Below, piece by piece: positions 8,790 to 64,000 of a DNA stretch of 64,000 bases. The stretch is taken from positions 744,001-808,000 of the forward strand of contig NZ_CP015102.1 in the NCBI RefSeq assembly GCF_002214485.1, written 5' to 3'. Made by a program: the position numbers and the translations under genes. The DNA comes from Thermococcus pacificus (lineage in GTDB: Archaea > Methanobacteriota_B > Thermococci > Thermococcales > Thermococcaceae). The notes under the pieces are model-generated. The model made no database searches. It saw only the letters and a list, made by a program, of their open reading frames with translations, and had not been told where the DNA came from. The number at the start of each line of letters is the position of its first letter. Position 1 is the stretch's first letter.

Positions 8790-8802
8790 GGAGGTGTGAA
8801 GA

Positions 8803-9408: not shown

Positions 9409-9447
9409 GGGGAAGGTTTTTAATCCCTCCCCTTTAGTTTAGCTCGC

Positions 9448-9535: not shown

Positions 9536-9593
9536 AAGCTTTAAAAATCGAGTCGTGTAGGTGAAGATGGTTTAAGATCATGAGGTGATCACT

Positions 9594-9752
9594 ATGGCGA
9601 GATTCCCCGAAGCTGAGGCAAGGATCTTTAGGAAATACATCTGCATGCGCTGCGGTGCCACCAATCCGTGGAAGGCCGAGAAGTGCAGGAAGTGCGGTTA
9701 CAAGGGCCTCCGCCCGAAGGCCAGGGAGCCGCGCGGTGGAATGGGACGCTGA
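9594..9752 (+). CDS. rpl40e: Ribosomal protein L40e
   Basis: A 52-residue zinc-ribbon ribosomal protein with cysteines at 17, 20, 31 and 34 (ICMRCG and KCRKCG) and the ending PRGGMGR, as in archaeal L40e and the ribosomal part of eukaryotic ubiquitin-L40. GAGGTGATC precedes ATG 9594. It closes the ribosomal block and is convergent with the PadR gene. Confidence 0.95.
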
Positions 9753-9860
9753 AGTCCCCCATATTCTATTTCTGGCTTTTCCATTCTGCGTTTCTACATT
9801 TCTGGGATTTTTATAGGATTGAAAGGAGAGTTTAAAATTCTCTGGAAGTCCAGCCAGCAT

Positions 9861-10190: not shown

Positions 10191-10239
10191 GCTCTCACCT
10201 ACTTTTATGGTCTGTAAATATTTTGGTTCCATTTAATTT

Positions 10240-10261
10240 AAACGTTTTGGCGGTAACGTTT
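10240..10261. promoter_or_regulatory. Inverted repeat, candidate PadR operator
   Basis: AAACGTT (10240-10246) and AACGTTT (10255-10261) form a perfect 7-bp inverted repeat with an 8-base spacer in the divergent PadR/FUN14 region. The right arm overlaps the TTTTTATC stretch, which is at TATA distance from the FUN14 start. Arm length and spacing fit a dimeric winged-helix site; the link to the adjacent PadR is inferred from position. Confidence 0.45.
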
Positions 10262-10299
10262 TTATCCCATGAGGCTTTTGCTATACTCTGGGTGGTAGA

Positions 10300-10599
10300 A
10301 TGGAGTTCGACGTAAACGCCATGATGGGCGACATGGGTGTAGGGGCTGTGGTCGGCTTCTTAACCGGCTACGCCATCAAGAAGGTTATGAAGCTGGCGCT
10401 GGCCCTAATAGGCGCCTACGTGGTCAGCCTCCTCTGGCTCGAGCAGAAAGGAGTTTTGATAATAGACAAGGACCGGCTCTTCAACCTCGTGGGCGAGTGG
10501 AGCCATGAAGTCCTGACCGCGGGAGAGAAGGTCATGGCCCTCCTCCCAGGCACGGCGGCCTTTCTGGGCGGCTTTGCCCTCGGCTTCCACAGGGGGTAA
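10300..10599 (+). CDS. FUN14-family small membrane protein
   Basis: 99 residues with two or three hydrophobic segments. The pattern GVGAVVGFLTGYAIKKVMKLALALIGAYVVSLLWLEQKGVLIID matches FUN14 proteins, small membrane proteins of unknown role in archaea (the mitochondrial relative FUNDC1 is a mitophagy receptor). GGGTGGT lies before ATG 10300. The gene is divergent from the PadR regulator and may be its target. Confidence 0.75.
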   Translation: MEFDVNAMMGDMGVGAVVGFLTGYAIKKVMKLALALIGAYVVSLLWLEQKGVLIIDKDRLFNLVGEWSHEVLTAGEKVMALLPGTAAFLGGFALGFHRG

Positions 10600-10610
10600 A
10601 ATGGAGGACG

Positions 10611-11372
10611 TTAAACCCTGCCGTGGTATAGAACCCTCACGAGCTCCTCCGGAAGGCCCTCCCTCTTTATCCTCTCCTCTATGAGCCTCTTCTCCTCCTC
10701 ATAGTCCACTTCTATGAACTTCGTGTGGAGGGTATTAACATCCACCAGTGCGAAAGTCGCCCTGTGGGCCTTTCCGGGCGGATAGCCAACGCTTCCGGGG
10801 CAGACCACCCTTCCGTACCGAGTCATCACGTTGACTGGGTACCTGGGCGATGCTACGAAGAGTATCTCGTAGTCCTTCACCGGCCTCATTATGGCGTCGT
10901 AATACGCCGTTGGCTGCTCGGGGAGCACCTTGCCGTAGAACGGATCGAGCGGGCTTCCGTATACCCCAAATATGTCGTTCTTTCCAATCTTGTCAACGAG
11001 GTAAACCGGCAGGTCCCTTATGAACTCCCTGCCCTCATGGCCGAGGGCCTCCCACGTGTACTTCAGGGCAGCCTTAATGTAGTCAGGATACTCAATCCGA
11101 TCTATGTAGTCCGGACCCTCGGCGTGGGGATCGCTCTCAGCTATGACCTGGTCGAACTCGCCCCGGATGACCTTGACCCTGTTGTTCCTTATGAGGTCGT
11201 CGAGCGTGTCTAGGACTTCCCTTGGGTACGGGAAGAGGCCGACGACGTTTCCGAGGATGTAGTACTTCTCAATCTCATACCCCTCCTCCTTGAGCCCCTC
11301 TATCCTCTCGAGGGCCTTCGCCAGTGCCGGCAGGTTCCCGTTGATGTTGGCCAGAACTGCGACGTACGTCAT
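10611..11372 (-). CDS. Metallophosphoesterase-fold protein lacking the metal ligands
   Basis: 253 residues that follow the calcineurin-like (YfcE/DUF2436-type) phosphoesterase layout, but each metal-binding motif is altered. The expected DIHGN is NINGN (residues 9-13), GDIVG is GNVVG (41-45), GNHD is GEFD (71-74), HGSP is YGSP (138-141), and GHTH is ASPR (174-177). The GSVGYP motif is kept. The protein fold is therefore probably intact while hydrolysis is lost, suggesting a binding or regulatory role. Start ATG 11372 follows GAGGGGTG; GTG and ATG codons at 11381 and 11378 overlap that site. Confidence 0.8.
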   Translation of the reverse strand: MTYVAVLANINGNLPALAKALERIEGLKEEGYEIEKYYILGNVVGLFPYPREVLDTLDDLIRNNRVKVIRGEFDQVIAESDPHAEGPDYIDRIEYPDYIKAALKYTWEALGHEGREFIRDLPVYLVDKIGKNDIFGVYGSPLDPFYGKVLPEQPTAYYDAIMRPVKDYEILFVASPRYPVNVMTRYGRVVCPGSVGYPPGKAHRATFALVDVNTLHTKFIEVDYEEEKRLIEERIKREGLPEELVRVLYHGRV

Positions 11373-11445
11373 CCGCATCACCCCTCAACTTTTTCTTACT
11401 ATACTTAACTAAAAAGATGGGAGTATTTAAGGCTTTCGTTGGGGA

Positions 11446-11523
11446 TCAACGCTTCCTGCTCTTCTTTCCCCTCTCCTCCAGTCTCATGGCGGCGAGGTAG
11501 AGCAGAACCGCGTCCTCCGTCAT
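11446..11523 (-). CDS. Very small basic protein, 25 residues
   Basis: A short frame beginning MTEDAVLLYLAAMRLEERG and ending in a Lys/Arg-rich tail KKSRKR. Its support is a strong ribosome site, GGAGGTGATGAC, directly before the ATG. The N-terminal part could form an amphipathic helix. It lies 73 bases upstream of the phosphoesterase-like gene on the same strand. Function unknown; it resembles in design the 35-residue protein at 16014. Confidence 0.45.
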   Translation of the reverse strand: MTEDAVLLYLAAMRLEERGKKSRKR

Positions 11524-11694
11524 GTCATCACCTCCGTTTTGTTTTTGTTTGAATCTCAATAGGTTGCCTTTGGATGGTATATTTTAACTAAGGGTGCAAT
11601 GATAACCGTGCACTGGCTGAGTGTGATTTTGGGTGGGGTGTTTATCGGCGCTTGGGGTTTTATGATCCTAGAGGTGACATGCGGGCTTTGATAA

Positions 11695-11965
11695 AACTTC
11701 ACGAGTTAGCTTTGGGAAAATTGACCAAGAGGTTCCTTTCTTCATAATTGACGGATGGGCATCAGCGTGCATGTCTCAAATTCCTGCTTGAATAAGGGTT
11801 TACTTCTCGAGCCACTCAAGCAGTTTGAGTTTATTCTGGCGCCCTAAGGGCGCCTTTATGAGAGCAAACACCTGAGAGATGCAATTAATGGGTAAGCCCC
11901 TTAAAACTGAGGATTCTAAAAGGACATGTGAACATTGACCAAACTTCGTGAAGGCAAATTTTGGG
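11695..11965. repeat. Intergenic repeat element, copy D (inverted)
   Basis: A non-coding 270-base stretch related to the elements at 20.6 and 63.2-63.9 kb. Its right end, read on the minus strand, gives TTTGCCTTCACGAAGTTTGG, like the left end of copy A (CTTCGCCTTCGCGAAGTTTG). Its left end contains CTTTGGGAAAATTGACCAA, like copy E. In the middle GGCGCCC-TAA-GGGCGCC (11838-11854) is a perfect 7-3-7 hairpin. Together with the promoter-like start this fills the gap between 11524 and tRNA-Arg; no gene is seen in it. Confidence 0.6.
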
Positions 11966-11969
11966 AGAA

Positions 11970-12047
11970 TGGCGGACCGGCGGGGATTTGAACCCCGGAC
12001 CTGCGGCTTAGGAGGCCGCCGCCCTGTCCTAGCTAGGCTACCGGTCC
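11970..12047 (-). tRNA. tRNA-Arg (anticodon CCU)
   Basis: On the minus strand: acceptor GGACCGG/CCGGTCC, anticodon stem GCGGC/GCCGC around CTCCTAA (anticodon CCT), T-arm CCGGGGTTCAAATCCCCG, encoded CCA, no intron. It is divergent from the Lrp gene, and the AT-rich 12060-12090 stretch probably holds promoters for both. Repeat copy D directly follows its 3' end. Confidence 0.95.
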
Positions 12048-12117
12048 ACTGCCCGCTATTTCATCCCGGGGAAGGGTATTTAAAGTTTACGGTTTTCACT
12101 CTTTAGGGGGTGAGGAA

Positions 12118-12567
12118 GTGGACGAGCTAGACCTTAAGATACTTTCACTGCTCCAGGAAAATGCCCGCCTTTCCTACCGCGAGATAGCGAGGGAACTGAG
12201 GGTGGCCGTCGGAACAGTCTACAACAGAATCAAGAGGATGGAGGAAGAGGGCGTAATTAGGGGGTTTGCTCCCGTCCTCGACTACGAGAAGCTCGGCTTT
12301 GGCCTCACTGCCGTCATCGGTGTGAAGGCCCAGGGACGCAGAATCGTCGAGATAGAGCGCGAGATAGCCAGAAACGACAGGGTGATGCTGGTCTATGACA
12401 TAACCGGGGAGTTCGACATAGTGGTCGTCGCGAAGTTCAGAGACAGGGCGGACATGAACCGGTTCGTGAAGTGGCTCCTCTCGCTGGAGGGGGTGGAGAA
12501 GACCAACACGAGTGTGGCCATGCAGGTTGTAAAAGAGGACATGAGGCTCAGGCTAACGGAGGACTAG
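12118..12567 (+). CDS. Lrp/AsnC-family transcriptional regulator
   Basis: 149 residues: N-terminal HTH (LDLKILSLLQENARLSYREIARELRVAVGTVYNRIKRMEEEG) and a C-terminal RAM ligand-binding domain (TAVIGVKA, VYDITGEFDIVVVAKF). Such proteins form octamers that sense amino acids or other small molecules; the ligand here is unknown. GTG 12118 follows GGGGGTGAGG, and GTATTTAAAG near 12076 is a likely TATA element. The 3' end overlaps the convergent gene by 15 bases. Confidence 0.92.
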   Translation: MDELDLKILSLLQENARLSYREIARELRVAVGTVYNRIKRMEEEGVIRGFAPVLDYEKLGFGLTAVIGVKAQGRRIVEIEREIARNDRVMLVYDITGEFDIVVVAKFRDRADMNRFVKWLLSLEGVEKTNTSVAMQVVKEDMRLRLTED

Positions 12568-12879
12568 AACTTCGTCGAGGAATCGCTTTGCGAAGTCGTC
12601 AAAGCTCTCGACGGGGAGGACTACGTCCTTTCCGTTGACCTTTCCCTCAAAAATCAGGCTCCTAGCCGTTATCTCCCGTATCTTCTTGAAGTCAGGGTTC
12701 TCTGTTACAGTGCTCTCAAGGACCTCTGTGAACTCTGCCTCGTCTGCGTGCCTCACGACTCCCTCAATGACGACCTCTTTTCCGCACTCCTCCTCACTGC
12801 AGCGGAATTTGAAGGGGAGGCCGGGCTCGACCTCCACCGGGATCGTCAAGCCGTCGGCGTTGTAGATGAAGACCTTCAT
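12553..12879 (-). CDS. Uncharacterised conserved protein
   Basis: 108 residues, not recognised as a named family. It opens with a short beta-rich part (MKVFIYNADGLTIPVEVEPG) and has one CSEEEC pair around residues 27-32 that could bind a metal or form a disulfide, then a charged helical half. Start ATG 12879 is favoured by GGAGTG upstream; a GTG at 12888 is an alternative. It lies just after gfcR on the same strand, so they are probably co-transcribed. Confidence 0.6.
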   Translation of the reverse strand: MKVFIYNADGLTIPVEVEPGLPFKFRCSEEECGKEVVIEGVVRHADEAEFTEVLESTVTENPDFKKIREITARSLIFEGKVNGKDVVLPVESFDDFAKRFLDEVLVLR

Positions 12880-12884
12880 TCCAA

Positions 12885-13601
12885 TCACTCCAGTTTTATT
12901 AGGCTCTCCACCGGGATGCTATACTCCTCTTTGAGGTGGTCGATCACGTCGCCGACGCTTATGAGGAAGAACATCCCGACGGGCTTTGCTCCCGCCTGCC
13001 TGCACATCTCCAGCAAAGCCCTCTGCGTTTCCCCGCTCCTTATGACGTCGTCCACTATGAGGACGTTCTCTCCCTTCCTGAGGGCCCACTGCGGCAGGTA
13101 GAGTGTTGTAACGCTTCCCGAGGCGCTGGGGACGTAGCTGACCTCGTAGAACTTCTCAACGCCCACTTCCTTCTTTTTCTTGGCGTAGACGACATCGACG
13201 TTGAGCTCCCTCGCCACGTGGACGCCGAAGGCTATGCCGTCCGTTGCGGCCGTTAGAACCTTGTCCACGTTCATGTCCATGTACCTTCCGGCCACGTCTT
13301 CGGCTATAAGGCTCATCAGCGCGGTGTCGCTGAGGACGGGCATGTTGTCAAAGAAGCCGTACTCGTCGAACTTTATCCTCTTCCGGACTTCCTCTTCTAT
13401 GTTTATGTAGGGCAGGAGCAGGTTGAGGAGCTCCTTCGTCCTCTCTGCACTTGGAAGAACCTTCCCCCTCACGTACCTGTTGAGCACCGTTATTGGGAGC
13501 CCCGTTATCTTGGAGAGCTCCTCGTAGGTGTAGGTCTTCTTGAGCAGCCTGAGCACCCTGACCAGTCTCAGCTTTTCCTGCACGGACTTAAGCTGACTCA
13601 C
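12885..13601 (-). CDS. gfcR: PRTase-like transcriptional regulator GfcR
   Basis: 238 residues combining an N-terminal helix-turn-helix (YTYEELSKITGLPITVLNRYVRG, about 24-46) with a phosphoribosyltransferase domain carrying the PRPP motif VLIVDDVIRSGET near residue 185. This is the OPRT-like family in which the haloarchaeal member GfcR controls sugar catabolism; in Thermococcales the role is less settled. GTG 13601 follows GGTGAG. A TATA box, ATATTTATAC, lies near 13638-13650 on the minus strand. Confidence 0.85.
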   Translation of the reverse strand: MSQLKSVQEKLRLVRVLRLLKKTYTYEELSKITGLPITVLNRYVRGKVLPSAERTKELLNLLLPYINIEEEVRKRIKFDEYGFFDNMPVLSDTALMSLIAEDVAGRYMDMNVDKVLTAATDGIAFGVHVARELNVDVVYAKKKKEVGVEKFYEVSYVPSASGSVTTLYLPQWALRKGENVLIVDDVIRSGETQRALLEMCRQAGAKPVGMFFLISVGDVIDHLKEEYSIPVESLIKLE

Positions 13602-13655
13602 GCTCTCACCTCCAGTGCCCAGTGATTAACAAAAAAATGTATAAATATGTTTCGG

Positions 13656-14156
13656 TCACTCGGTGGCCTTTACAATCTTCCCGCGGTATTCCCCTATAAC
13701 GTCGCCATAATCGCGGAGCAGGAACTCCCCCGTAACGGGCTCTCCGTCGGGGTGGTTTAGACCGGGGCAGAATGGATCCATTTTAACGTATACTTCCATC
13801 TTCTTCCCCGACTTCACGAACACGAAAGGATAGAGCCTGCAGGCGAGGGGTCTATGGGGGTAGATTTTGCACCTCTTTGTCTCCGGATCGAGGAAGACGC
13901 AGGCCCCGTCGAAGGGGCGCTTTTTGAGGGCGTAGCTCAGAAACTTGTCGCCCCTGTAGAACATCTTATCGTAGTCAACGAACTCCCAGGCGTTATAGCC
14001 CAGCCCCTCGATTTCAGTTATGTCCTCGTCCCGAACCGGGATCTCAAGCTCGTGGCAGCACCTTCCGCAGTTCTCAAGGCACTTAAATTTAAAGGTGGGA
14101 TCGTACTCGACCTCCAAGGTCTCGAGGTCGATGGTGGCGACCCACCTCCTCTCCAA
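13656..14156 (-). CDS. YkgJ-family cysteine-cluster protein
   Basis: 166 residues with cysteines at 26, 30, 33 and 34 (CLENCGRCC), then GACVFLD, CKIYPHRPLACRLYPF and a late CPG. This is the YkgJ/CxxCxxCC family, thought to bind zinc or an iron-sulfur cluster; its function is unknown. It is first in the direction away from SRP54 and the RAM protein, with short spacing (4 bases), so it is probably in their transcript. Confidence 0.85.
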   Translation of the reverse strand: MERRWVATIDLETLEVEYDPTFKFKCLENCGRCCHELEIPVRDEDITEIEGLGYNAWEFVDYDKMFYRGDKFLSYALKKRPFDGACVFLDPETKRCKIYPHRPLACRLYPFVFVKSGKKMEVYVKMDPFCPGLNHPDGEPVTGEFLLRDYGDVIGEYRGKIVKATE

Positions 14157-14160
14157 CCCC

Positions 14161-14400
14161 TCACCCCCTGTAGGAGCTGGCTATCAGCGTCTCCGTCATC
14201 TCGATGTTCTTGAGCTTCCTCAGAACCTCATCGTGGAACCTGTCGAGGGCCTCAACGTTCTCCACCTCAACGCGGAGGATCAGGTCGTACTCCCCGTAGA
14301 CCCTGTAAATTTCCTTGATCCTCTCGTGTCCGCTGAGGGCGTTGTAAACCTCCTCCTCATGGCCGGGCTTAACGACAACCAGCACGAACACCTCCATCAT
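14161..14400 (-). CDS. Stand-alone Lrp/AsnC RAM-domain protein
   Basis: 79 residues comprising only the ligand-binding RAM fold ([36 protein letters not shown]), without an HTH. Such proteins can sense amino acids on their own or mix with full-length Lrp proteins. The ATG at 14400 overlaps the srp54 stop as ATGA, which implies coupling; the ATG at 14397 is an alternative. Confidence 0.85.
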
Positions 14401-15743
14401 ATCCCCAGCCCCCCGAAGTTGAACTTCTTGGCCATCTTGGCCAGCTTCCTCTTGTCCATGCTCTTGAACATCTTCTTCATCTGGTTGTACTGGTTCAAAA
14501 GCTCTCTGACTTCAGCCGTGCTCGTGCCGGAACCACGCGCTATTCTCTTTATCCTCGAGTAGTTGATTATTTCGGGGTTCTCAAGCTCCTCATCGGTCAT
14601 TGAGTCCATTATTACGCGGTATTTTCTCAGCTTCTCCTCGCCGACCTTAACCATGTCGTCTGGAAGTGAGTAGCCAAGTCCAGGTATCATCTGGAGTATC
14701 TGCTTGAGCGGTCCCATGTTCTGCATGGCCTCAAGCTGAGCATACATGTCTTTGAGGTTGAACTTGCCCTTGAGGAACTTCTCCATGTCCTCTTCCTTGA
14801 ACTCCTGCTGCTTCTGGAGCTCTTCAAGTTTCTCGAGGAGGCCCTCTATGTCGCCCATTCCGAGCAGTCTGGAGACGAAGCGCTTGGGGTCGAAGGCCTC
14901 TAAGTCATCAATCCTCTCGCCCACACCGATGAACTTTATCGGGGCGCCGGTTGCCGCCACTGCCGAAAGCGCACCGCCGCCCTTTGCGCTTCCGTCGAGC
15001 TTCGTGACGATTATAGAGCCTATCGGAGTGGCCTCCTTGAACGCTAATGCCTGGTTATAGGCCTGCTGGCCGATGGTTCCGTCTATGACGAGGATAACCT
15101 CATGGGGCTTTATGGCCTCGCTTATCTGCCTCATCTCCTCGATGAGACCGGACTCCTCCTTATGCCTTCCCGCGGAGTCGACTATGATGACGTCGACTCC
15201 CTTCTCCTTAAAGTACTCCACTCCCTCGCGGGCCAGCTTCACCGCGTCCTTCTCCTCGGGATCACCGAAGACCTCTATTCCAAGGGGCTCCACGAGCTGC
15301 TTGAGCTGGAAGTACGCACCGGGCCTCCAGGTGTCGGAGCAGACGAGACCGACCTTGTAGCCCCTCTTCTGGAGGTGTCTGGCGAGCTTCGCCACGCTCG
15401 TAGTCTTACCGGAACCCTGTATGCCGACGGTGAGCAGGATGGTTGGTTTCTCCTTTATCTCCAGGGGTTTTGCTTCCTTTCCTAGGAACTTTGTGAGTTC
15501 CTCATAGACTATCTGGATTATATGCTCCTTCTTGGAGGCCCCCGCCGGGGGCTCCTCCTCAAGGGCCCTCTTCTCTATGGTCTTCGTCAGCTGGAGGACC
15601 ATCCTTACGTTAACATCCGCCTGAATGAGTGCCCTCTGTATGTCTCGCACTACCTCTTTGATAGTCGCCTCGTCCACCGTCCTTGAGCGGGCGAGCTTCT
15701 TGAGGGCGCTGTTGAGTGCCTTTCCAAGCTTTTCTAGGGCCAT
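14397..15743 (-). CDS. srp54: Signal recognition particle protein SRP54
   Basis: 448-residue SRP GTPase that binds signal peptides and 7S RNA and docks ribosomes at FtsY. It has an N helical bundle, G-domain motifs [21 protein letters not shown] and [10 protein letters not shown], and a methionine-rich M domain ([13 protein letters not shown], then [11 protein letters not shown]). Start ATG 15743 ([10 protein letters not shown]) follows GGTGGGAG; the ATG 30 bases upstream is less likely. Confidence 0.97.
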
Positions 15744-16013
15744 TTTCTCCCACCGTAGGGAAGATGTCTTCAAAGTTTATAAACGGTTGGGTGGTGGAGC
15801 CCCATTCAGATGTATTCTTTTGAAGGAAAAAGGGTGTCTAGGGGCCATTTATTTGGACAATTATGTTCATTCAGCATCAATCTCGAACTTCTCTGCTTTT
15901 TCAAGGGAATAAGGGATTTATAGAGACACGTATGAAATTTTGAGGGCTGAAAACCCTTATAAGCCGAAAATAACATTAGAAATGAATGGAGAGATGAAAA
16001 GGAGGTGAGAGAG

Positions 16014-16121
16014 ATGATGTGGATGCCAGCGGTCTATGGATACATGATCACCAAGGAGATGGAGAGGAAAAAGAAGAGGTCGATTCCTGAGGAGCTGGAG
16101 TACGTTGAGATGCTGATGTAG
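16014..16121 (+). CDS. Small protein of 35 residues
   Basis: A short frame MMWMPAVYGYMITKEMERK continuing through KKRSIPEELEYVEMLM. Its support is a very strong ribosome site (AGGAGGTGAGAGAG), an upstream TATA-like CCTTATAAGCC near 15955-15965, and a palindrome plus T-run after the stop, which together make a complete mini transcription unit. A short hydrophobic start with a basic centre suggests peripheral membrane association. Function unknown. Confidence 0.55.
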   Translation: MMWMPAVYGYMITKEMERKKKRSIPEELEYVEMLM

Positions 16122-16139
16122 TGAGGCCTCACCTTTTTT
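16121..16139 (+). terminator. Palindrome with T-run
   Basis: GTGAGGCCTCAC (16121-16132) is a perfect palindrome overlapping the stop codon of the 35-residue small protein, followed by CTTTTTTA. A T-run after a transcript end is the usual archaeal termination signal. Confidence 0.6.
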
Positions 16140-16274
16140 ATTTCCCCAGGGTGAGGATGTGGCTGCTGTGCTACGTCCCAGACTTTAAATCGACAAACGC
16201 CGATATTATTTTTAACGAATGTCTATTAGAAAGTCTTTTATACTTTAAGATAGTATGTAATACTGGTGACACCC

Positions 16275-16484
16275 ATGACAACGGTGATTAGGAAAGATGC
16301 GGAGAGGTTTTTGAAGGAGCTTAGAACCCATTACGGCGATGTCTGGAAGATGCCGCGCAGCAACTACCTGTCAAAGCCTGATTTCATTGTTATAGATCCA
16401 AAAAGCGGTAAAAAGACCAAGGTCAGCTTCGTCTCCCTAGACGACGGCGAGGTCGTTGGAGTAGTATACGACGAGCTTGGATGA
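16275..16484 (+). CDS. Uncharacterised 69-residue protein
   Basis: Small basic protein starting MTTVIRKDAERFLKELRTHYGD, with an apparent beta-rich half (FIVIDPKSGKKTKVSFVSLDDGEVVGVVYDELG). No family recognised. Start ATG 16275 follows GGTGAC at 16265-16270. TTTTATACTTTAA near 16236-16249 is a good promoter. It has its own transcript between two AT-rich regions. Confidence 0.65.
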   Translation: MTTVIRKDAERFLKELRTHYGDVWKMPRSNYLSKPDFIVIDPKSGKKTKVSFVSLDDGEVVGVVYDELG

Positions 16485-16573
16485 GCTTTCGTTTTTGACT
16501 AATTCTATTCGTATGTTTTAGTTAATGGAAAACAATTAAATACTTCCACGTTGTAAACCCTCTGGTGGAAATA

Positions 16574-17875
16574 ATGCCCACTGAAGTTTACCGCGAGGCC
16601 CTTCGACTGGCCGAGGACATACGTGACAAATACCTCAGAGCGGTCACTTACGCTAAAATTGGCTACTACATGCACCGGGCCAAGCATCCCGAGTACAAGA
16701 CCGCCTTTAAGTACGCCTTCAACGTCGTCTCCTCCATGGAGAACCCATTTCTGGCCGCCAAGGCCCTCATAGAGATCGGCACCTACCTCTGGAAGACCGG
16801 CTCCAAGACCGCCAGAAAGGTCTTCGGTCAGGTTCACGATGCCGTCGTCGATTTTCCTCAGCCAATACGCGACGACCTCCTCGAGGAACTCGTGGTCAGG
16901 CTGCTTGAGCTTGGAATAATCGACGACGCACTCTTCTACGTCGGCGACATCGAGGACAACATAAAGCGCAACGACCTCCTCCTGAAGATCCTCAGGGTGT
17001 ACCTCAAGCACGGCAACATGCGCAGGGCCTACCTAATCATAAACCAGATAGATGATGAGCCATGGCGCTCCATAGCTGTCGTCGAGACCGTCAAGGTGCA
17101 CCTCAAGCGAGAGGAGTTCGGAAGCGCGATACGCATACTCACCGAGCTCAAGAGCGAATACTGGCTCGGGGAGGCCATGAAGGAGGTCGCCATGTGCCTC
17201 AAGACAGCCGACGTTCCAAAGGCCACCTACCAGAAGTTCGTCGACATAGCCCTCTCGCTCTCGGGCGAGACGGGCTCTGACGTCCTCAACTCCCTCCTAA
17301 TAGGGATGGGCAGTCAGGGAGAGCTCGAGTTCGTGATGGGAATCCTCGAAAAGCTCCCCCCCGAGCAGAGGACTTCCGTACTGGAAGGCATCGTCAGCGC
17401 CTCGATCGACAGGGAGGAGGTCCTCAGCAGGCTCCTCAACCTGCTCAGGGGCGATGAGTTCGAGCGCATCGCGGGCTTTGTCATGGACAGGCTTCTCTCC
17501 CGGCCGGTGAGCGAGAGTTACTCCGACCTCGTGAAGACCATAGGGGGGAGAACCCGCGAAGATGCCGTCCTCGTCAAGGTCGCCACGTACCTCGCTAAAC
17601 TGGGGGACTTCGATGCCGCGTTGGAGTTCGCCTCAAGGGTCAGGGGTCACTACCTCCGCTCCCTCGCCTTCGGAAGCATAGCCGTCTCCAAGCTCAAGGG
17701 TGGCGACATAGACGGGGCCATCGATGCGGCCCTTGAGGTGAAGGACCCGAAGTGGGGCTCCTGGCTCCTCAGCGAGATACTCACCAAGATCCTCGAACTC
17801 CAGGCTGAGGGAGAGGTAAGCGAGGATATCGAGGCGAAGGCCGAATCCCAGCGTGCCATCTGGGAGAAGGGCTAA
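16574..17875 (+). CDS. Alpha-helical repeat protein of unknown function
   Basis: 433 residues composed almost wholly of helix pairs in TPR/HEAT-like repeats (for example LVVRLLELGIIDDALFYVGDIED, ILTELKSEYWLGEAMKEVAMCLK, VATYLAKLGDFDAALEFASRV). Such solenoids bind other proteins. No signal peptide or enzyme motif is visible. Start ATG 16574 follows GGTGGA; AACAATTAAATAC upstream is a TATA candidate. It lies 40 bases before the MTA phosphorylase gene. Confidence 0.75.
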   Translation: MPTEVYREALRLAEDIRDKYLRAVTYAKIGYYMHRAKHPEYKTAFKYAFNVVSSMENPFLAAKALIEIGTYLWKTGSKTARKVFGQVHDAVVDFPQPIRDDLLEELVVRLLELGIIDDALFYVGDIEDNIKRNDLLLKILRVYLKHGNMRRAYLIINQIDDEPWRSIAVVETVKVHLKREEFGSAIRILTELKSEYWLGEAMKEVAMCLKTADVPKATYQKFVDIALSLSGETGSDVLNSLLIGMGSQGELEFVMGILEKLPPEQRTSVLEGIVSASIDREEVLSRLLNLLRGDEFERIAGFVMDRLLSRPVSESYSDLVKTIGGRTREDAVLVKVATYLAKLGDFDAALEFASRVRGHYLRSLAFGSIAVSKLKGGDIDGAIDAALEVKDPKWGSWLLSEILTKILELQAEGEVSEDIEAKAESQRAIWEKG

Positions 17876-17915
17876 CGTTTTAAGCCTCAGGTCTTTTCTT
17901 CTTCTAGGTGATACC

Positions 17916-18719
17916 ATGCCAAGGATAGCGATTATTGGAGGTTCCGGCGTATACGACCCCAAGCTGCTCGAAAACGTCAGGGAGGAGTTCGTGAGCACTC
18001 CCTACGGAAAGGTCCGGGTGAAGGTAGGGGAGTACGACGGTGAGGAGATAGCTTTTCTGGCCAGGCACGGCGAGGGCCACAGCGTTCCGCCGCACAAGAT
18101 AAACTACCGCGCCAACATCTGGGCGCTCCACGAGCTCGGCGTCGAGAGGATTCTCTCAACTTCAGCCGTCGGCTCACTCAACGAGGCCATGAAGCCAGGC
18201 GATTTTGTGATACTCGACCAGCTGATGGACTTCACCAAAACCAGGCACTACACCTTTTACGACGGCGACGAGAGCCCGCACGACAGGAAGTTTGTTGCCC
18301 ACGTCGACTTCACAGACCCCTACTGCCCGGAGCTGAGGAAAGCCCTCATCACGGCGGCGAAGGAGCTGGGCTTCAGCTACCATCCGACGGGGACCTACGC
18401 CTGCATGGAGGGGCCACGCTTCGAGACGAGAGCGGAGATAAGGGCACTTAAGATACTCGGTGCCGACGTCGTCGGGATGACCCAGTGCCCCGAGGCTGCT
18501 CTAGCGAGGGAGCTTGAAATGTGCTACGCCAGCGTTGCCATCGTCACGAACTTCGCGGCTGGAATAAGCACCCAGAAGCTCACCCATACCGAGGTCGTCG
18601 AGCTGATGGCCCAGAAGAGCGAGGAGATAAAGTACCTCCTCATGAAGTCCATAAAGTACATACCGAGGGAAAGGCACTGCGGCTGCAAGGACGCCCTGAA
18701 GGGCGCGACAGGTGAGTGA
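17916..18719 (+). CDS. mtnP: S-methyl-5'-thioadenosine phosphorylase
   Basis: 267-residue purine nucleoside phosphorylase family enzyme that splits MTA to adenine and methylthioribose-1-phosphate. Visible are IIGGSGVYD near the start, HGEGHSVPPHKINYRAN, CMEGPRFETRAEI and GMTQCPEAALARE. The ending CGC near the C-terminus resembles the disulfide-rich tail of hyperthermophilic archaeal MTAPs. ATG 17916 follows GGTGAT. Substrate preference among MTA, adenosine and inosine cannot be settled by sequence. Confidence 0.9.
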   Translation: MPRIAIIGGSGVYDPKLLENVREEFVSTPYGKVRVKVGEYDGEEIAFLARHGEGHSVPPHKINYRANIWALHELGVERILSTSAVGSLNEAMKPGDFVILDQLMDFTKTRHYTFYDGDESPHDRKFVAHVDFTDPYCPELRKALITAAKELGFSYHPTGTYACMEGPRFETRAEIRALKILGADVVGMTQCPEAALARELEMCYASVAIVTNFAAGISTQKLTHTEVVELMAQKSEEIKYLLMKSIKYIPRERHCGCKDALKGATGE

Positions 18720-18823
18720 TGTTCTTTTTTCTTCATCTCTCTCCCAAAAGGTGCTTACGTTGAGAACTTAAGGTTAAAGAAAGCGTTTAATAATCAGAAA
18801 CCCCGTTCTTTATGGTGATCGAA

Positions 18824-20161
18824 GTGAAGTACGACGTCGTGGTTATTGGAGCCTCCGCGGGAGGATTGACGGCGGCAATTTCAGCCAAGAAGTTCTACCC
18901 GGACAAGACCGTCCTGGTCATCAGAAAGGAAGAAGTTGGGATGATACCCTGCGGGATCCCGTACATCTTTGGAACCCTGAAGAGCGTTGACGACGACGTT
19001 CTGCCTGTTGAAAGATTCCTGAAACCCCTCGGTGTTGACCTGCTGACCGATGAAGTCGTTGAAATCGACCCCAAAAGGAAAGTCCTCAAAACTAGGTCGG
19101 GAAGGGAAGTTGCCTGGGAGAAACTCGTCATCGCAACGGGTTCGAGGCCGGCAAAGCCGAACTTTCCAGGCGTTGAGCTTGAGGGAATATACACCATTTC
19201 CAAGGACTACGAATACCTCAAAAGGCTTAGGGAGAAAATTGAGGAAGCGGAAAGGATTGTCATTGTCGGCGGTGGCTTCATAGCCCTTGAAGTTGGCGAC
19301 GAGATAAGAAAGCTCGGCAAGGAAGTCACGCTTGTTGTCAGAAGCAGGCTTTTGAGGAGCTCCTTTGATCCGGAGTTCAGCGAGATGATTGAGGAAAGAC
19401 TGAAGGAAGTCGGGGTTAATATCATCCACGGCCAGGTTGAAGCGTTTGAGGGAAGCGGAAAGGTCGAGAAAATTAGGCTCCTCGACGGAAAGGAGGTTCC
19501 CGCGGATTTGGTAATCCTCTCGACAGGTTACAAGCCAAACGTTGAACTAGCTATTAAGGCAGGGCTTAAGGTCACCCGCTACGGCATCTGGACCGATGAG
19601 TACATGCGGACTTCTCATCCGGACATCTTTGCCGTCGGTGACTGCGTTGAGCACAGGGATTTCTTCACAGGGAAACCCTACGGACTTATGCTCGCCTCGA
19701 CGGCGACCTTCGAGGCCAGAATCGCTGGTGCAAACCTCTTCAAGCTCCAGATAGTGAGAGAGAACAGGAGGACGATAGGCGTTTACTCCACCCACGTTGC
19801 CGGTTTGACCCTGGCGGCGGCGGGCCTCACGGAAGAAGCCGCCAAGAAGGAGGGCTTTGAGGTTATAGTTGGCTACGGAAAGGGCCCCGACAGGCACCCA
19901 GCAAAGTTCCCGGACACCTCCATGGTAACCGTGAAGCTCATATTCTCCCGCGACAGGGGCGCTATCCTCGGCGCCCAGATAGCGGGCGGAAAGAGCGTCG
20001 GCGAGATGATAAACATCCTCGCGCTGGCCATACAGAAGAGGCTGACCGCGAGTGAGCTCTACACCCTCCAGATAGCGACCCACCCGCTCCTCACGGCTTC
20101 CCCAGTTGGATACCAGATACTCCAGGCGGCAGAGGACGCGCTGGCGAAGCTGAGGGCTTGA
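18824..20161 (+). CDS. CoA-disulfide-reductase-like FAD/NAD(P)H oxidoreductase
   Basis: 445 residues of the pyridine nucleotide-disulfide oxidoreductase family. FAD motif GASAGG (9-14), a single redox cysteine C43 in MIPCGIPYIFG, NAD(P)H motif IVGGGFIALEVG and FAD motif DIFAVGDCVEH are visible, with a dimerisation domain at the end. One active Cys at position 43 fits CoA disulfide reductases, NADH oxidases and the NAD(P)H sulfur oxidoreductase group of Thermococcales. GTG 18824 is chosen because GGTGAT lies at 18814-18819; an ATG at 18812 is the alternative. Confidence 0.8.
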   Translation: MKYDVVVIGASAGGLTAAISAKKFYPDKTVLVIRKEEVGMIPCGIPYIFGTLKSVDDDVLPVERFLKPLGVDLLTDEVVEIDPKRKVLKTRSGREVAWEKLVIATGSRPAKPNFPGVELEGIYTISKDYEYLKRLREKIEEAERIVIVGGGFIALEVGDEIRKLGKEVTLVVRSRLLRSSFDPEFSEMIEERLKEVGVNIIHGQVEAFEGSGKVEKIRLLDGKEVPADLVILSTGYKPNVELAIKAGLKVTRYGIWTDEYMRTSHPDIFAVGDCVEHRDFFTGKPYGLMLASTATFEARIAGANLFKLQIVRENRRTIGVYSTHVAGLTLAAAGLTEEAAKKEGFEVIVGYGKGPDRHPAKFPDTSMVTVKLIFSRDRGAILGAQIAGGKSVGEMINILALAIQKRLTASELYTLQIATHPLLTASPVGYQILQAAEDALAKLRA

Positions 20162-20347
20162 ATCTCTGGGGACACTCTTTTACTTTTTGTGTGGTTTGCT
20201 TTTGCTCTGCCTCTCTCGAACGCCTTTAGGCGGGCAAACACTATGAAACTGCAATTTCGTTAGCAAACCCCCTTGAAGGTATGGTATTCCCAAAAAGCAG
20301 AAGCTCAATTTTTTCCCATCGCTTTGCGCAGGTGAAGTTTGTTAGAA

Positions 20348-20425
20348 TGGCGCCCCGGCGGGGATTTGAACCCCGGACCTCAAGGTCCGCAGCCTTGCGC
20401 CCTATCCAGACTAGGCCACCGGGGC
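20348..20425 (-). tRNA. tRNA-Arg (anticodon GCG)
   Basis: Minus strand: acceptor GCCCCGG/CCGGGGC, anticodon stem CAAGG/CCTTG around CTGCGGA (anticodon GCG), T-arm CCGGGGTTCAAATCCCCG, encoded CCA, no intron. A TATA-like TTTATAAA lies upstream near 20455, shared with the region before tRNA-Gly. Confidence 0.95.
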
Positions 20426-20531
20426 ATCTGCCAGCTAACCATTCTCGGGAACGCTTTATAAATTTAACCGTTTCAGCGCACCGAAAGATTTATAAAGCGT
20501 CCGAAGGTGACTATGTAACGGGCCGCGGAGT

Positions 20532-20609
20532 GCGGTGGTAGTCTAGCCTGGTCTAGGACAGCGGCCTGCCACGCCGCTGGCCCGGGTTCAAATCCCGGCC
20601 ACCGCACCA
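20532..20609 (+). tRNA. tRNA-Gly (anticodon GCC)
   Basis: Acceptor GCGGTGG/CCACCGC, anticodon stem GCGGC/GCCGC around CTGCCAC (anticodon GCC), T-arm CCCGGGTTCAAATCCCGG, encoded CCA. TTTATAAAG near 20489-20497 is at promoter distance. Repeat copy A starts about 10 bases beyond its 3' end. Confidence 0.96.
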
Positions 20610-20619
20610 CAATTTTAAC

Positions 20620-20900
20620 AAACTTCGCCTTCGCGAAGTTTGATCAAGGTTCGTGGTTCTTATTAGGGGTGCCAAAATACAGCAGGATTCCTTTTACGAG
20701 CTGTTTTGGGGCTTGAATTCCCTCAGCTGACCCTTTCAAAGAGTTACTCCTCTTGACGCTCTTCGAGCGTCGGTTAAAATTTGAACTCTTTCCAAAATGC
20801 CTTGTGAATTGAATTCAAAGCTTAATCTGGAGTTCCTTAGCTCTGAATCTCATTAAAGACCAAACTCTCGCAAGAACCACGAATTTTTAGTGAAGCTTTT
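20620..20900. repeat. Intergenic repeat element, copy A (best-preserved)
   Basis: A 280-base non-coding element between tRNA-Gly and udp. It starts with hairpin AAACTTCG-CCTTCG-CGAAGTTT (20620-20641), then GATCAAGG. Terminal inverted repeats TTCGTGGTTCTT (20650-20661) and AAGAACCACGAA (20872-20883) are perfect over 12 bases. Inside are GATTCCTTTTACGAGCTGTTTT and hairpin GACGCTC-TTC-GAGCGTC (20755-20771). Copy B at 63.4-63.7 kb is the same design in inverse orientation. No open reading frame of note. Confidence 0.75.
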
Positions 20901-20944
20901 TTTAGACGTTTCCTTAGCAGAACGTTGGAAATAAAAATAAAACA

Positions 20945-21778
20945 TCAACCTCTCAGTCCCGGGAACCAGACCTTCTTGCCCTTCCGCTCCTTCTCCTCGT
21001 CCCACTCGGCAAGTATCTTAACCGCCTCGCTGGCGACGAGGGCGGCTTCCTTCTCTCCTGCTTTACCGAACTCGTTGGTAACACGGTTGGCGAAGACGGC
21101 GCAAACACAGCCAGCCCTCAGGCCGTAGATGCTCGCCAGCGTGTAAAGGGTAGCGGCCTCCATCTCGAAGTTCGTGACGTTGGCCTGCCTGAGGTCGTCG
21201 AGGATGTTCCTGGCAAAGCTCGGGAAGTAGCCGTTCAGGCCGGGCCTGCCCTGGCCGAGGTAGAAGCTGTCAGTCGAGGCGGTTATGCCTAGGTGGTACC
21301 TGACGCCCAGGCTCTCGGCCGCTTCAATCAGGGCCATCGTGACCTCCAAATCGGCGACGGCTGGGTACTCAACTCTAACGTACTGCTTTGAAGTTCCTTC
21401 AAGCCTCACCGCTGCCTTCGCAATGATTAAGTCCCCTATCTCCATTCCTGGCTGTATCGCACCGGTCGAGCCAACGCGGATGAAAGTGTCCGCCCCTATC
21501 GCGGCGAGCTCTTCAACCGCTATGGCTGTAGATGGCCCTCCTATTCCCGTTGAGGTCACGCTTATCGGGACGCCTTTGTACTTCCCGGTGTGCGTCCTGT
21601 ACTCGCGGTGAAAGGCTATCTCTTTGGCCTCATCCCAGAGTGAACTTATTTTTGGGACCCTCTCAGGATCGCCGGGCAGGAGGACGTACCTGGCAACGTC
21701 GCCGGGCTTGCAGGCTATGTGGTACTGGTAGCCTTCCTCCGTTTGAGGCCTCTCAGCCGAAACGAACTTTTCACCCAT
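20945..21778 (-). CDS. udp: Uridine phosphorylase
   Basis: 277-residue nucleoside phosphorylase (NP-I family) converting uridine and phosphate to uracil and ribose-1-phosphate. Visible: YVLLPGDPERVPKI, TGIGGPSTAIAVEEL, FIRVGSTGAI and NFEMEAATLYTLA (ribose-binding Met-Glu). Start ATG 21778 follows GGTGGT; a GTG at 21787 lies within that site. Divergent from the threonine synthase-like gene with about 70 bases between. Confidence 0.92.
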   Translation of the reverse strand: MGEKFVSAERPQTEEGYQYHIACKPGDVARYVLLPGDPERVPKISSLWDEAKEIAFHREYRTHTGKYKGVPISVTSTGIGGPSTAIAVEELAAIGADTFIRVGSTGAIQPGMEIGDLIIAKAAVRLEGTSKQYVRVEYPAVADLEVTMALIEAAESLGVRYHLGITASTDSFYLGQGRPGLNGYFPSFARNILDDLRQANVTNFEMEAATLYTLASIYGLRAGCVCAVFANRVTNEFGKAGEKEAALVASEAVKILAEWDEEKERKGKKVWFPGLRG

Positions 21779-21850
21779 GGTAACCACCTTTTTATGCTCT
21801 CGTGCACTATAGTCAGTGTTGGAACTAAAAAAGCCTTTGGAGCTGAAAGC

Positions 21851-22915
21851 ATGCTCAGGTGTACGCGGTGCGGTAAGGCATATCCCGAGACGTTCAGGCT
21901 GAGGTGCGACTGCGGTGAGACACTACTCGTTGAGAGAGAAGGCTATGACTTCTTCGGGAGCCTCCTGCCCTACCTAGACATCAGGCGGTACCTCAATTTC
22001 CTTCCCATTGGGGGCAACTACCTCCCTCCCGCGATACCTGCTATAACGCCGACTACTTCAGTTCAGGCAGGACCGGTCTTTGCCCTCTTCAAGCTGGAAT
22101 ATCTCCAGCCCAGCGGCTCCTTCAAGGACAGGGGAACGTTCGTTACCGTTGCCAAGCTCATGGAGGAAGACATAAACGAGGTTGTCCTCGACAGTTCAGG
22201 AAACGCGGCATTAAGCCTTGCCCTCTACTCCCTTCCAGCGGGAATAAAGGCCCACCTCTTCGTCTCGTATGACACCATGCCAGAAAAGCTCTCCCTCCTT
22301 CAGAGCCTCGGTGCGGTTATCCACTTCGTTGAGGGAGACAGAATGGCGGTTCACGAGAAAGCCGAGGAGTTCGCTGAGAGAGAGGGCCTAACCTACGTCT
22401 CCCACTGGCTTAACCCGTACTTCCTCGAGGGAACCAAGACGGCCGCCTTCGAAGTTTACGAGCAGGTTGGGGTTCCAGACTACGTTTTGGTACCAACCGG
22501 TTCTGGGACTCTGTTCCTCGGCCTCTGGAAGGGCTTTAAGGAGCTTGAGAAGATGGGCGAGATAGCGAGGCTTCCGGTCTTCGTTGCGGTTCAAGCGGCT
22601 GGCTACGAGAGCCTCTGCGAGCGCTCTAAACTGCCGAACCCGCTGGCGGATGGCATAGCTATTCCACAGCCACCCAGGCTGAAGGAGATGGAACGTGTCT
22701 TGGACGAGACTGGCGGCCTCTGCGTGAGCGTTGACGAGCATGAAACCAGGGAGGCACTGAGCTGGCTGAAAAGGGCCGGCTTCCTCGTTGAACCCACCTC
22801 GGCAGTTGTCCTCGCGGCAATGTGGAAGCTGATTGAGAGGGGGGAGATTTCAGACGGTTCGAGGGTCCTGCTTCCCCTTACTGGTTCAGGTCTTAAACTA
22901 ATCGAAGGTATTTAA
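21851..22915 (+). CDS. Threonine synthase family PLP enzyme
   Basis: 354 residues. N-terminal zinc ribbon (C4, C7, C19, C21), then a fold-type-II PLP domain with the Schiff-base lysine intact in SGSFKDRG (K92), the PLP O3' asparagine in SSGNAALSLAL, and phosphate loop PTGSGTLFLG. It would make threonine from phosphohomoserine, though related archaeal paralogues may use other substrates. It is the active counterpart to the paralogue at 60791, in which this lysine is replaced. Start ATG 21851 has GGAG upstream. Confidence 0.85.
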   Translation: MLRCTRCGKAYPETFRLRCDCGETLLVEREGYDFFGSLLPYLDIRRYLNFLPIGGNYLPPAIPAITPTTSVQAGPVFALFKLEYLQPSGSFKDRGTFVTVAKLMEEDINEVVLDSSGNAALSLALYSLPAGIKAHLFVSYDTMPEKLSLLQSLGAVIHFVEGDRMAVHEKAEEFAEREGLTYVSHWLNPYFLEGTKTAAFEVYEQVGVPDYVLVPTGSGTLFLGLWKGFKELEKMGEIARLPVFVAVQAAGYESLCERSKLPNPLADGIAIPQPPRLKEMERVLDETGGLCVSVDEHETREALSWLKRAGFLVEPTSAVVLAAMWKLIERGEISDGSRVLLPLTGSGLKLIEGI

Positions 22916-22951
22916 AGTCTTGAGTGGATATTCAGCTGGAGGTGAGTGGAG

Positions 22952-23827
22952 ATGATTAGGTATCCGGCCGTCGCTGGAAGCTTCTATCCCGCTGACGAAG
23001 AACTAGTCGAGATGCTGGAGAGGTTCTTCAGGGATCTCGGGGAGGAGGGTAGCGAGAGAAAAATCACGGCTGGCGTTGCACCGCACGCTGGCTACGTCTT
23101 CTCCGGCTACACAGCGAGCAGAACCTACAAGGCAATCTTTGAGGACGGCCTGCCTGAAACCTTCGTAATCCTCGGGCCAAATCACACGGGCCTCGGCTCA
23201 CTGATAGCGGTTTACCCTGAAGGTGAGTGGCTGACTCCGCTGGGAACCATAGAAGTCGATTCCGAGATGGCCAAGGCGATAGCAAAGCTATCCGGGATAG
23301 CGGATTTAGATGAGCTTGCCCACAAGTACGAGCACTCGATCGAGGTACAGGTGCCATTCATCCAGTATATCGTCGAGAAAGCAGGAAAGGATGTCAAACT
23401 CGTTCCGATAGCCCTTGGAATTCAGGATGAGGAGGTTTCGAGGGCACTTGGACGGGCCATATTCGAAGCCAGCAGGGAACTGGGACGGGACGTGGTCGTT
23501 ATCGCGAGCACTGACTTCACCCACTACGGCTCCGTTTACGGCTACGTGCCATTTAAGGCCAGGGCTGACGAGCTTCCCCACAGGATAAAGGAGTGGGACT
23601 TTCAGGTAATAAGGCGCATCCTTGACTTCGACGTCGATGGGATGTTCAATGAGATCAGAAAGCTTGACCACACGATGTGCGGGCCCGGTGGCGTCGGAAC
23701 CGCGATAGTCTACTCTCGCCTAGCCGGAGCGGTTGAAGCTGAGTTGCTCCATTACACGACCAGCTTCGAGGTGAGCAGGAGCACCGATGCAGTAGTTGGA
23801 TACGCGAGCATCGTGATGAGGAAGTGA
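22952..23827 (+). CDS. MEMO1-family protein
   Basis: 291 residues with [15 protein letters not shown] at the start, [27 protein letters not shown] and STDFTHYG, the conserved MEMO pattern related to class III extradiol dioxygenases. Biochemical role in archaea is unknown. It is immediately upstream of mevalonate kinase, an association often seen in archaea, which suggests a link to isoprenoid synthesis. GGAGGTGAGTGG precedes ATG 22952. Confidence 0.9.
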
Positions 23828-23880
23828 CTACCAAAAGCCACATAAACTTTCTTTTTCTTTTTGTTTGTGGAGGGTCAAAG

Positions 23881-24885
23881 ATGAGAGTCTTAGCTTCAGC
23901 TCCCGCTAAAATTATCCTCTTCGGTGAGCACAGCGTGGTTTACGGAAAGCCAGCAATAGCGGCCGCCATAAACCTTCGAACCTACGTCAGGGCCGAGTTC
24001 AACGACTCTGGAAGGATAAAAATAGAGGCCCACGACATAAAGACCCCCGGTTTGATAGTTTCCTTCTCCGAGAACGAGATATACTTCGAGAGCGACTACG
24101 GAAAGGCCGCCGAGGTTCTCAGTTACGTCAGACAGGCGATAGAGCTTGTCCGGGAAGAGGCCGACGTTAATGGTAGGGGAATCACGGTCTCGATTACCTC
24201 TCAGATTCCGGTTGGAGCTGGACTTGGAAGCTCGGCCGCCGTTGCCGTTGCCACAATCGGGGCGGTCTCAAAGCTCCTCGGTCTTGAACTCACCAACGAG
24301 GAGATAGGAAAGCTCGGCCACCGCGTTGAGCTCCTGGTCCAGGGTGCCTCAAGCGGAATAGACCCGACGGTTTCTGCCATAGGGGGAATAATTCACTACG
24401 AGAAAGGTAAATTCGAGCACCTTCCCTTCATGGAACTGCCGATAGTCGTTGGCTACACTGGCTCAAGCGGCTCAACCAAAGAGCTGGTGGCAATGGTGAG
24501 GAGGACCTACGAGGAGATGCCTGAGATAGTCGAGCCAATCCTAGCTTCGATGGGTAAAGTCGTGGAGAAGGCAAGGGAGACCCTGTTGTCGGAGCTTGAA
24601 GAGGGGCAGAAGCTCGCCCGCCTCGGCAGGCTGATGAACATCAACCACGGCCTTTTAGATGCCCTGGGCGTCTCAACGAAGAAGCTGAGCGAGCTGGTCT
24701 ACGCCGCGAGAACCGCCGGCGCTTTGGGGGCGAAGATAACTGGAGCAGGAGGAGGCGGTTGCATGTACGCCCTGGCCCCGGAGAGGCAGAGCGAGGTGGC
24801 AACGGCGATAACGATAGCCGGTGGGACGCCGATGATAACCGAGATAAGCCGCGAAGGGCTTCGCATTGAGGAGGTTCTGCCATGA
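23881..24885 (+). CDS. mvk: Mevalonate kinase
   Basis: 334-residue GHMP kinase producing mevalonate-5-phosphate. Motif 1 is [21 protein letters not shown], the ATP loop is [15 protein letters not shown], and motif 3 is [17 protein letters not shown] 23881 follows GGAGGGTC. Its stop overlaps the ipk start by 4 bases, so the two steps are coupled in translation. Confidence 0.95.
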
Positions 24886-63224: not shown

Positions 63225-63402
63225 AACTTTGCCTTTGCAAGGTTTCATCAAAGTTCGTGATTCCTTTTTAGGGCTCTTTATTTTTGGAGGGTTTCCACTA
63301 GGAGTTAAGCATTAAACGTTGGATTCTGCAGTATGGTTCTCATTGCGGTTGGTTCGCTTTCAACGCGCTCCGTTGAGCGTTAAAAAACCGAACCTTCACG
63401 AA
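63225..63402. repeat. Intergenic repeat element, copy C (degenerate)
   Basis: Directly after rpiA. The left end AACTTTGCCTTTGCAAGGTTTCATCAAAGTTCGTGATTCC lines up with copy A's left end, including TTCGTGATTCCT (63254-63265). The right side has AACCTTCACGAA (63391-63402) in inverse, and GCTC-CGTT-GAGC within the interior. Shorter and more changed than A or B. Confidence 0.5.
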
Positions 63403-63690
63403 CAAGCTTTTGAAAAAAAGCCTCACCAAAAGTTCGTGGTTCTTCTTAAATTGTCGGTTTGAGAGTCGGTTTGAGAAGGATTCCATTGAGAGGAACTAGA
63501 GTGAATCTTGAATTCCACCTGTTAACCTAATGCTTGTTATGAGTTCAATTATAACCGACGCCCAAAGGGCGTCAAGGGAGGAGAACTCCCTGAGAAAGGG
63601 CTATAATTAGGGAATTCAAATCTAAAACAGCTCGTAAAAAGGAATCCCCTTGCGGTTAGCGCTGTCAAAAAGAACCACCAACCTTGATCA
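63403..63690. repeat. Intergenic repeat element, copy B (inverse to A)
   Basis: Read on the minus strand it aligns with copy A over most of its length: TTTGATCAAGG, GGTGGTTCTT, GGATTCCTTTTTACGAGCTGTTTT, GAATTCCC, then hairpin GACGCCC-AAA-GGGCGTC (63557-63573) and GGTTATAATTGAACTC. Ends are TTCGTGGTTCTT (63433-63444) and AAGAACCACCAA (63670-63681), one mismatch from inverse complements. About 249 bases between ends. Confidence 0.7.
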
Positions 63691-63699
63691 AACTCAACG

Positions 63700-63935
63700 G
63701 GGCTGTCGTCCCGTGCGTTGGAGCTTCACTCCAACGTCGCGCAGGCGAACAAGCTTTGGGAAAGCTTGACCAAAACAGTGCCCTTTTCATTAAATTGGCA
63801 GAGATTAAACGTGCACTAATCAAGAACAACATTTATAAGGGGTTACTCTCCAAACAGCCGTATTAAAACCGTTTCAACCTTTTTATTGGCGTCCTTTGGA
63901 CGCCGTTTGAAGATAGAAACACTTCACAAAACATA
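63700..63935. repeat. Intergenic repeat element, copy E (partial)
   Basis: It begins with hairpin CGTTGGAG-CTTCA-CTCCAACG (63716-63736), then GAACAAGCTTTGGGAAAGCTTGACCAAAA, like the outer side of copies B and D, and carries a 7-3-7 hairpin GGCGTCC-TTT-GGACGCC (63888-63904). The far end is not clear before the window closes. Bases 63935-64000 hold nothing recognisable. Confidence 0.5.
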
Positions 63936-64000
63936 TCAACAGGAAAGAAACCCATACTCACATTAGTTTGCATTAAAAAGAGGCACTTACTCTTCCGCCA

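Follow-up and report, generated by a model that had tools for sequence, protein, structure and literature searches.

Foldback and MITE-like repeats that seed inversions are a known kind of element. Integron attC sites belong to the recombination sites that act as folded single strands; these are imperfect palindromes, frequently in arrays, in which the ends are conserved and the interior varies. The repeats of the REP/BIME plus RAYT or IS200/IS605 (Y1) systems are likewise palindromic and intergenic, lie behind genes and are often arrayed. In Drosophila, the foldback-like Galileo elements have long inverted arms and cause inversions by ectopic recombination (PMC2775673). SSV- and pTN3-type integrative elements target tRNA genes, and the pTN3 integrase has been implicated in Thermococcus inversions (PMC5495485). 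A 2024 review of prokaryotic MITEs mentions neither Thermococcus nor Pyrococcus (PMC10969869), and the open-licence papers that we searched describe no foldback, palindromic or MITE-like elements in the Thermococcales.

The window, i.e. the whole stretch of 64,000 nucleotides from the Thermococcus pacificus chromosome analysed here, contains representatives of a large family of foldback DNA elements, non-coding and about 220-300 bp long. Like MITEs, they are short, non-coding, intergenic and present in high copy number, with terminal inverted repeats common to subfamilies of different interior. They differ from MITEs in their strict register at tRNA 3' ends and in forming one continuous long foldback with outer hairpins; neither a parent transposon (in the fetched loci) nor a target-site duplication was seen. 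With Galileo they share the long inverted arms and the presence of copies at inversion junctions, but they are far smaller, archaeal and located at tRNA ends, and no coding copy is known. Integron attC sites are a possible mechanistic analogue, although the Thermococcus elements are very different in size and sequence and their arrays contain no cassettes at the loci examined. Compared with REP/BIME sequences they are much longer and have inverted ends. A Y1 transposase was considered as mobiliser and rejected, as PF01797 is absent from the genome of T. pacificus (G000), from the two richest in elements, T. nautili (G013; PMC3968343) and G010, and from most element-bearing genomes, being found in a minority only. 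The association with tRNA genes is shared with SSV/pTN3-type elements, whereas the units described here comprise 220-300 bp, occur in dozens of copies, contain neither an integrase nor a split integrase gene, and lie outside the tRNA, starting after the CCA, with no att core inside the tRNA gene.

The element at 20.6 kb spans positions 20619-20913 (+ strand throughout). It starts with a 5' outer hairpin, CAAACTTCGCCTTCGCGAAGTTTG (20619..20642), 9 bases past the CCA of tRNA-Gly(GCC) (20532-20609), and continues with the left-end 14-bp end motif AAGTTTGATCAAGG (20636..20649), the 5' arm of the closing stem GGTTCGTGGTTCTT (20648..20661), the central 7-3-7 hairpin GACGCTC-TTC-GAGCGTC (20755..20771), the 3' arm of the closing stem AAGAACCACGAATT (20872..20885) and a degenerate 3' outer hairpin region (20889..20913). 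The inverted ends, flanking hairpins and central hairpin ascribed to this element in the initial annotation are thus all present. The sequence TTCGTGGTTCTT stands in perfect inversion at 20650-20661 and 20872-20883; allowing up to two mismatches, it occurs 13 times in the window versus 4.9 expected, a number reached by none of the shuffles. On the other side of the adjacent tRNA genes, a degenerate element (20190..20347, - strand, left boundary approximate) lies directly behind tRNA-Arg(GCG) (20348-20425, -). Between the two elements lies a tRNA pair whose orientation is reversed in five of the 12 related genomes. The tRNA-Arg/tRNA-Gly segment (20322-20617) is flipped in place in G019, G005, G021, G059 and G006 relative to T. 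pacificus, G010 and T. nautili.

The proposed relatives are present, at about 11.7, 63.2, 63.4-63.7 and 63.7-64.0 kb, all on the minus strand. A CATGTC-subfamily element (11703..11966; central hairpin GGCGCCC-TAA-GGGCGCC at 11838-11854) lies behind tRNA-Arg(CCT) (11970-12047, -) and is followed by the start of a second, truncated element (11640..11702). Near the end of the window, a short or truncated GTGATTC-type element (63225..63402) abuts the stop codon of the gene at 62541-63224. Next to it are a GTGGTTC-subfamily element (63403..63749; central hairpin GACGCCC-TTT-GGGCGTC at 63557-63573; long cloverleaf-like 5' end at 63682-63749) and an element of a second type (CGCTGGCGGAA; 63750..64000; central hairpin GGCGTCC-AAA-GGACGCC at 63888-63904), which runs beyond the window end toward a tRNA-Val at ~64312. 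The claim that all copies share their end sequences stood only in part: several subfamilies are represented among the copies, and the TTCGTGGTTCTT ends are missing from the ones at 11.7 and 63.7-64.0 kb. Elsewhere in the genome (1.786 Mb, one contig), a 301-bp query detected clear paralogues with E = 6e-30, 5e-19, 5e-19 and 1e-17.

From the loci of T. pacificus a common plan could be read: a 5' hairpin, GATCAAGG, a closing stem and imperfect arms lead to the central 7-3-7 hairpin, after which arms, closing stem, CTTTGATC and a 3' hairpin complete the second half. The element ends reduce to a 14-bp inverted motif (AAGYTTSAYCAARR) adjoining a hairpin. A looser form, AARYTTSAYSAARR, gave 42 matches in T. 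pacificus versus four for the reversed pattern; the tighter AAGYTTSAYCAARR gave 75 in G010 and 56 in T. nautili, mostly as inward pairs at constant spacing, with no match of the reversed controls in either genome. We extracted 186 distinct copies from all fetched DNA, which bear out the proposal of a dispersed non-coding element with terminal inverted repeats. Their lengths from motif start to motif start fall into sharp classes near 215-229, 245-264 and 280-290 bases. At 70% identity at least eight subfamilies are distinguished, which have the ends in common and differ in their interiors; copies of the same subfamily are frequently 85-95% identical. Both the closing stem (GTGGTTC, GTAGCTC, GTGATTC, GCATGTC and others) and the central hairpin (GACGCCC, GCGCTCC, AACGCCC or AGCGCCC, with the complementary partner in the other arm) are subfamily-specific. 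The second type of element begins with CAGCCCTTGC..GCAAGCGCTGGCGGAA and has only the 3' motif in common with the first.

Some further features of these loci are worth recording. A 66-nt cloverleaf-like 5' end hairpin (CAAACTTCGCCTGCGCGACGTTGAAGC..GGGACGAYAGTCCCGTTGAGTTTG), seen in the window at 63682-63749 (-) and at loci L044, L048, L053 and L061, is about 90-97% conserved across species, and cloverleaf-like and short forms of the 5' hairpin alternate at the same place. A second GC-rich repeated module (TGTACTCTCAAACCCCCG..GGGGCTTCGCCCCAC..GGGGGGCTAACGCCCCC) recurs beside element arrays and tRNA genes (L129, 1760-1800; L164, 1720-1815; L334, about 1640-1860; T. pacificus chromosome, 1267510-1267640). 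The 3-nt central loop is found as GAA and TTC (also as GGA/TCC and GGG/CCC) inside subfamilies, and this comparison suggests occasional loop inversion, one orientation usually being dominant. We dropped the idea that such flipping (GAA versus TTC) proves cruciform processing, since some flips exist but one orientation dominates in most subfamilies.

Further copies in related genomes were found throughout the genus: Blast matches are present in 57 of the 61 Thermococcus genomes, and the two motifs at element spacing in 55. Among other genera, paired motifs were detected in one of three genomes of g2 and, as a single match per genome, in three of 13 of g4; they are absent from g3 (nine genomes), g5 (seven) and g6 (one), and the reversed paired-motif control gave zero in all 94 genomes. 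The single matches in the g4 genomes G074, G076 and G077 might be stray copies outside the main range. We take genomes G014, G021, G012, G064 and G066 to be T. onnurineus, T. sp. 4557, T. kodakarensis, P. abyssi and P. horikoshii; the sister genus g3 (nine genomes) would then be Pyrococcus. The end motif was not found in a few Thermococcus genomes (G022 and G033), G022 being a complete genome. With the queries used, no copies were found on plasmids, phages or viral contigs.

The initial annotation missed two features of the family, its fixed position behind tRNA genes and its coincidence with rearrangement junctions. Concerning the former, the first hairpin starts 2-9 nt past the CCA in 23 of the 44 tRNA genes of T. 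pacificus, as a rule behind the final gene of a tRNA group, and about half of the tRNA genes have no element. At the loci of T. pacificus, G010 and T. nautili, 59 array edges face tRNA 3' ends and four face 5' ends. In most first-type copies 17-21 nt separate the motif from the tRNA; a second group of distances, at 241-280 nt, is consistent with a single intervening second-type element. Elements often form tandem arrays, some of which start directly behind a stop codon (window position 63224; L129), and many copies have a T-rich stretch after the first hairpin. Occupancy varies between species. The tRNA-Arg(CCT) site carries a CATGTC element in T. pacificus and a GTGATTC-type element in T. nautili and G005; G059 has just a hairpin there, and in G021 nothing could be recognised. 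G010 has an extra unit of roughly 270 bp that is absent from T. nautili. Such sites, occupied, differently occupied or empty in related species, lend support to the earlier suggestion of a non-autonomous mobile element.

In this genus IS elements are scarce, and it is debated what shuffles the chromosomes (PMC5495485, PMC2718504). For the REARRANGEMENT junctions, three tests point one way, toward the elements. When window positions 4001-24000 were compared with 12 genomes, all breaks in order or orientation fell into three gaps (11.44-11.97, 20.16-20.32 and 20.62-20.94 kb), each with elements or remnants in it. The segment 11.97-20.6 kb is inverted as a block in G020 and G009, and 11.97-20.16 kb is relocated about 70 kb away in G010. 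At the three element-free tRNA genes of this region there is no rearrangement, apart from one insertion into tRNA-Leu in G009. This insertion of roughly 12.5 kb (G009, C1 486154-498669), which splits synteny at the tRNA-Leu gene (window position 5835), is probably an integrated plasmid or virus. The comparison is suggestive but not final, because the element gaps account for about 29% of crude intergenic length in this 20-kb region and the genomes share ancestry; the concentration of breaks may partly be due to elements being long, dispensable intergenic spaces.

The second test compared G010 with T. nautili. Among the 12 loci with both flanks placed (nine more were unplaceable and left out), five are junctions between different T. 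nautili element loci and seven remain syntenic. The third test concerns the inversions between T. onnurineus and T. sp. 4557, whose endpoints Cossu et al. placed within tRNA pairs (PMC5495485). By flank comparison we recovered junctions matching the published ones, and of the eight junction sides seven carry elements. In vitro, no recombination was obtained with the tRNA-Leu and tRNA-Thr genes of the published endpoints (PMC5495485). An inversion in laboratory culture of T. nautili took place between two tRNA-Gly genes (PMC5495485); the two T. nautili tRNA-Gly genes that best fit this event by locus-tag spacing share 247 bp at 96% identity, of which 78 bp are tRNA and about 167 bp element.

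As single-stranded DNA, 20622-20885 folds with z = -4.5 and the 63.4-63.7 kb copy with z = -3.1 relative to shuffles; the long 5' end of 66 nt folds into a four-way cloverleaf (z = -6.1). This strong foldback, the close register and set orientation that the elements keep behind a unit's final tRNA, and the T-rich stretch past the first hairpin of many copies would suit a structured RNA, such as a tRNA trailer, a small RNA or a 3' processing or termination signal co-transcribed with the tRNA. The pairing errors argue otherwise. An RNA fold kept on one strand should tolerate G-U over A-C on that strand. Single-strand consensus folding favours G-U on the strand folded, and a count from such folding was discarded; with only pairs predicted on both strands kept, six subfamilies gave 25 G-U and 24 A-C cells, whereas 106 distinct tRNAs taken from these loci gave 11 and 0 in their acceptor and T stems. 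It is therefore more likely that the element is maintained, or re-made, as DNA and not as an RNA fold. The covariation reported for the central hairpin is real between subfamilies, the four hairpins quoted being subfamily differences, but weak within a subfamily, where at least two Watson-Crick types occur in only four of 99 strand-independent pairs. Of the selection on structure (RNA or single-stranded DNA) proposed at the outset, what holds is that subfamilies differing in sequence have retained the foldback; nothing points to RNA. About half of the tRNA genes and some complete Thermococcus genomes (G022) do without the element or its end motif, some copies stand behind protein genes, subfamilies swap at the same tRNA, and Rfam returned no match to the element at the gathering threshold or even at E = 10. 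We consequently regard an RNA function as quite unlikely. Rfam matches elsewhere in the window were an sR58 C/D box RNA and an eL15 ribosomal protein leader (55217-55272 and 40874-40917).

At the DNA level, the elements might be old, immobile repeats that tolerate breakage and are spread and swapped by ordinary or pTN3-type integrase recombination alone. IntpTN3 recombines any homologous stretch of at least about 100 bp (PMC5495485), a length exceeded by the 247 bp, including about 167 bp of element, shared by the T. nautili tRNA-Gly pair presumed to have inverted in culture, and the 85-95% identity within subfamilies fits as well. Recombination could by itself replace one subfamily by another, with no transposition involved. 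It accounts less well for the common ends and register of subfamilies whose interiors differ; the tRNA 3' register and an end motif common to unrelated interiors suggest targeted insertion, and extra single units exist. On balance, passive repeats of this sort appear unlikely. The elements could also be host sites of chromosome architecture, i.e. cruciform-forming DNA that is kept as a barrier or insulator where tRNA genes are strongly transcribed and that breaks only incidentally. DNA-level pairing, strong hairpins with cloverleaf-like ends and the clustering at tRNA genes are what such sites would display, but the elements are nearly lacking in some Thermococcus genomes and in the Pyrococcus-like genus, and this, the tandem arrays and the variable occupancy make this very improbable.

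We therefore favour, as the probable explanation, that the family consists of non-autonomous, tRNA-end-targeted foldback mobile DNA elements serving as recombination sites; common ends, unrelated interiors, a fixed target and variable occupancy together fit mobility in trans best. According to this proposal, one enzyme, of the host or of a plasmid, would recognise the shared ends in trans and insert or swap elements at tRNA 3' ends, and the hairpins would act as DNA, either as a cruciform or as a single strand. Exchange between dispersed copies, via their ends or via roughly 250 bp of homology, could then yield inversions and translocations. With one genome per species, we found neither a target-site duplication nor a clean recent empty site, and sites compared between species are too diverged to define such a duplication. 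No autonomous partner with the same ends was present in the fetched loci. Long gaps between inward motifs were considered as places for an autonomous copy and rejected, since they held only arrays with decayed motifs and no plausible transposase. A bolder possibility, tentative and rather doubtful at present, is that the elements are dedicated, genome-wide folded-DNA recombination sites at tRNA 3' ends, on which a specific enzyme would act via the hairpin ends, so that the whole genus would shuffle its chromosomes at portable sites.

As far as can be told, the tRNA-end register, the paired hairpin ends and the link to genus-wide scrambling are new. That Thermococcus chromosomes are scrambled so fast although IS elements and repeats are few has been described as paradoxical (PMC2718504). 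The shuffling agent has been sought for years, and a plasmid integrase has been proposed (PMC5495485). If the junctions are the elements rather than the tRNA genes, this paradox gets a concrete, testable answer: the repeats exist, would have been overlooked because they are non-coding and diverged, and would supply a short shared sequence at many tRNA ends. A mobile DNA lineage would also be revealed. Thermococcus chromosomes are reported to be scrambled and those of Pyrococcus more colinear, and the distribution of the elements agrees with this contrast. On the favoured reading, the elements would be the repeats behind much of the chromosome scrambling in Thermococcus, and may help to explain its speed.
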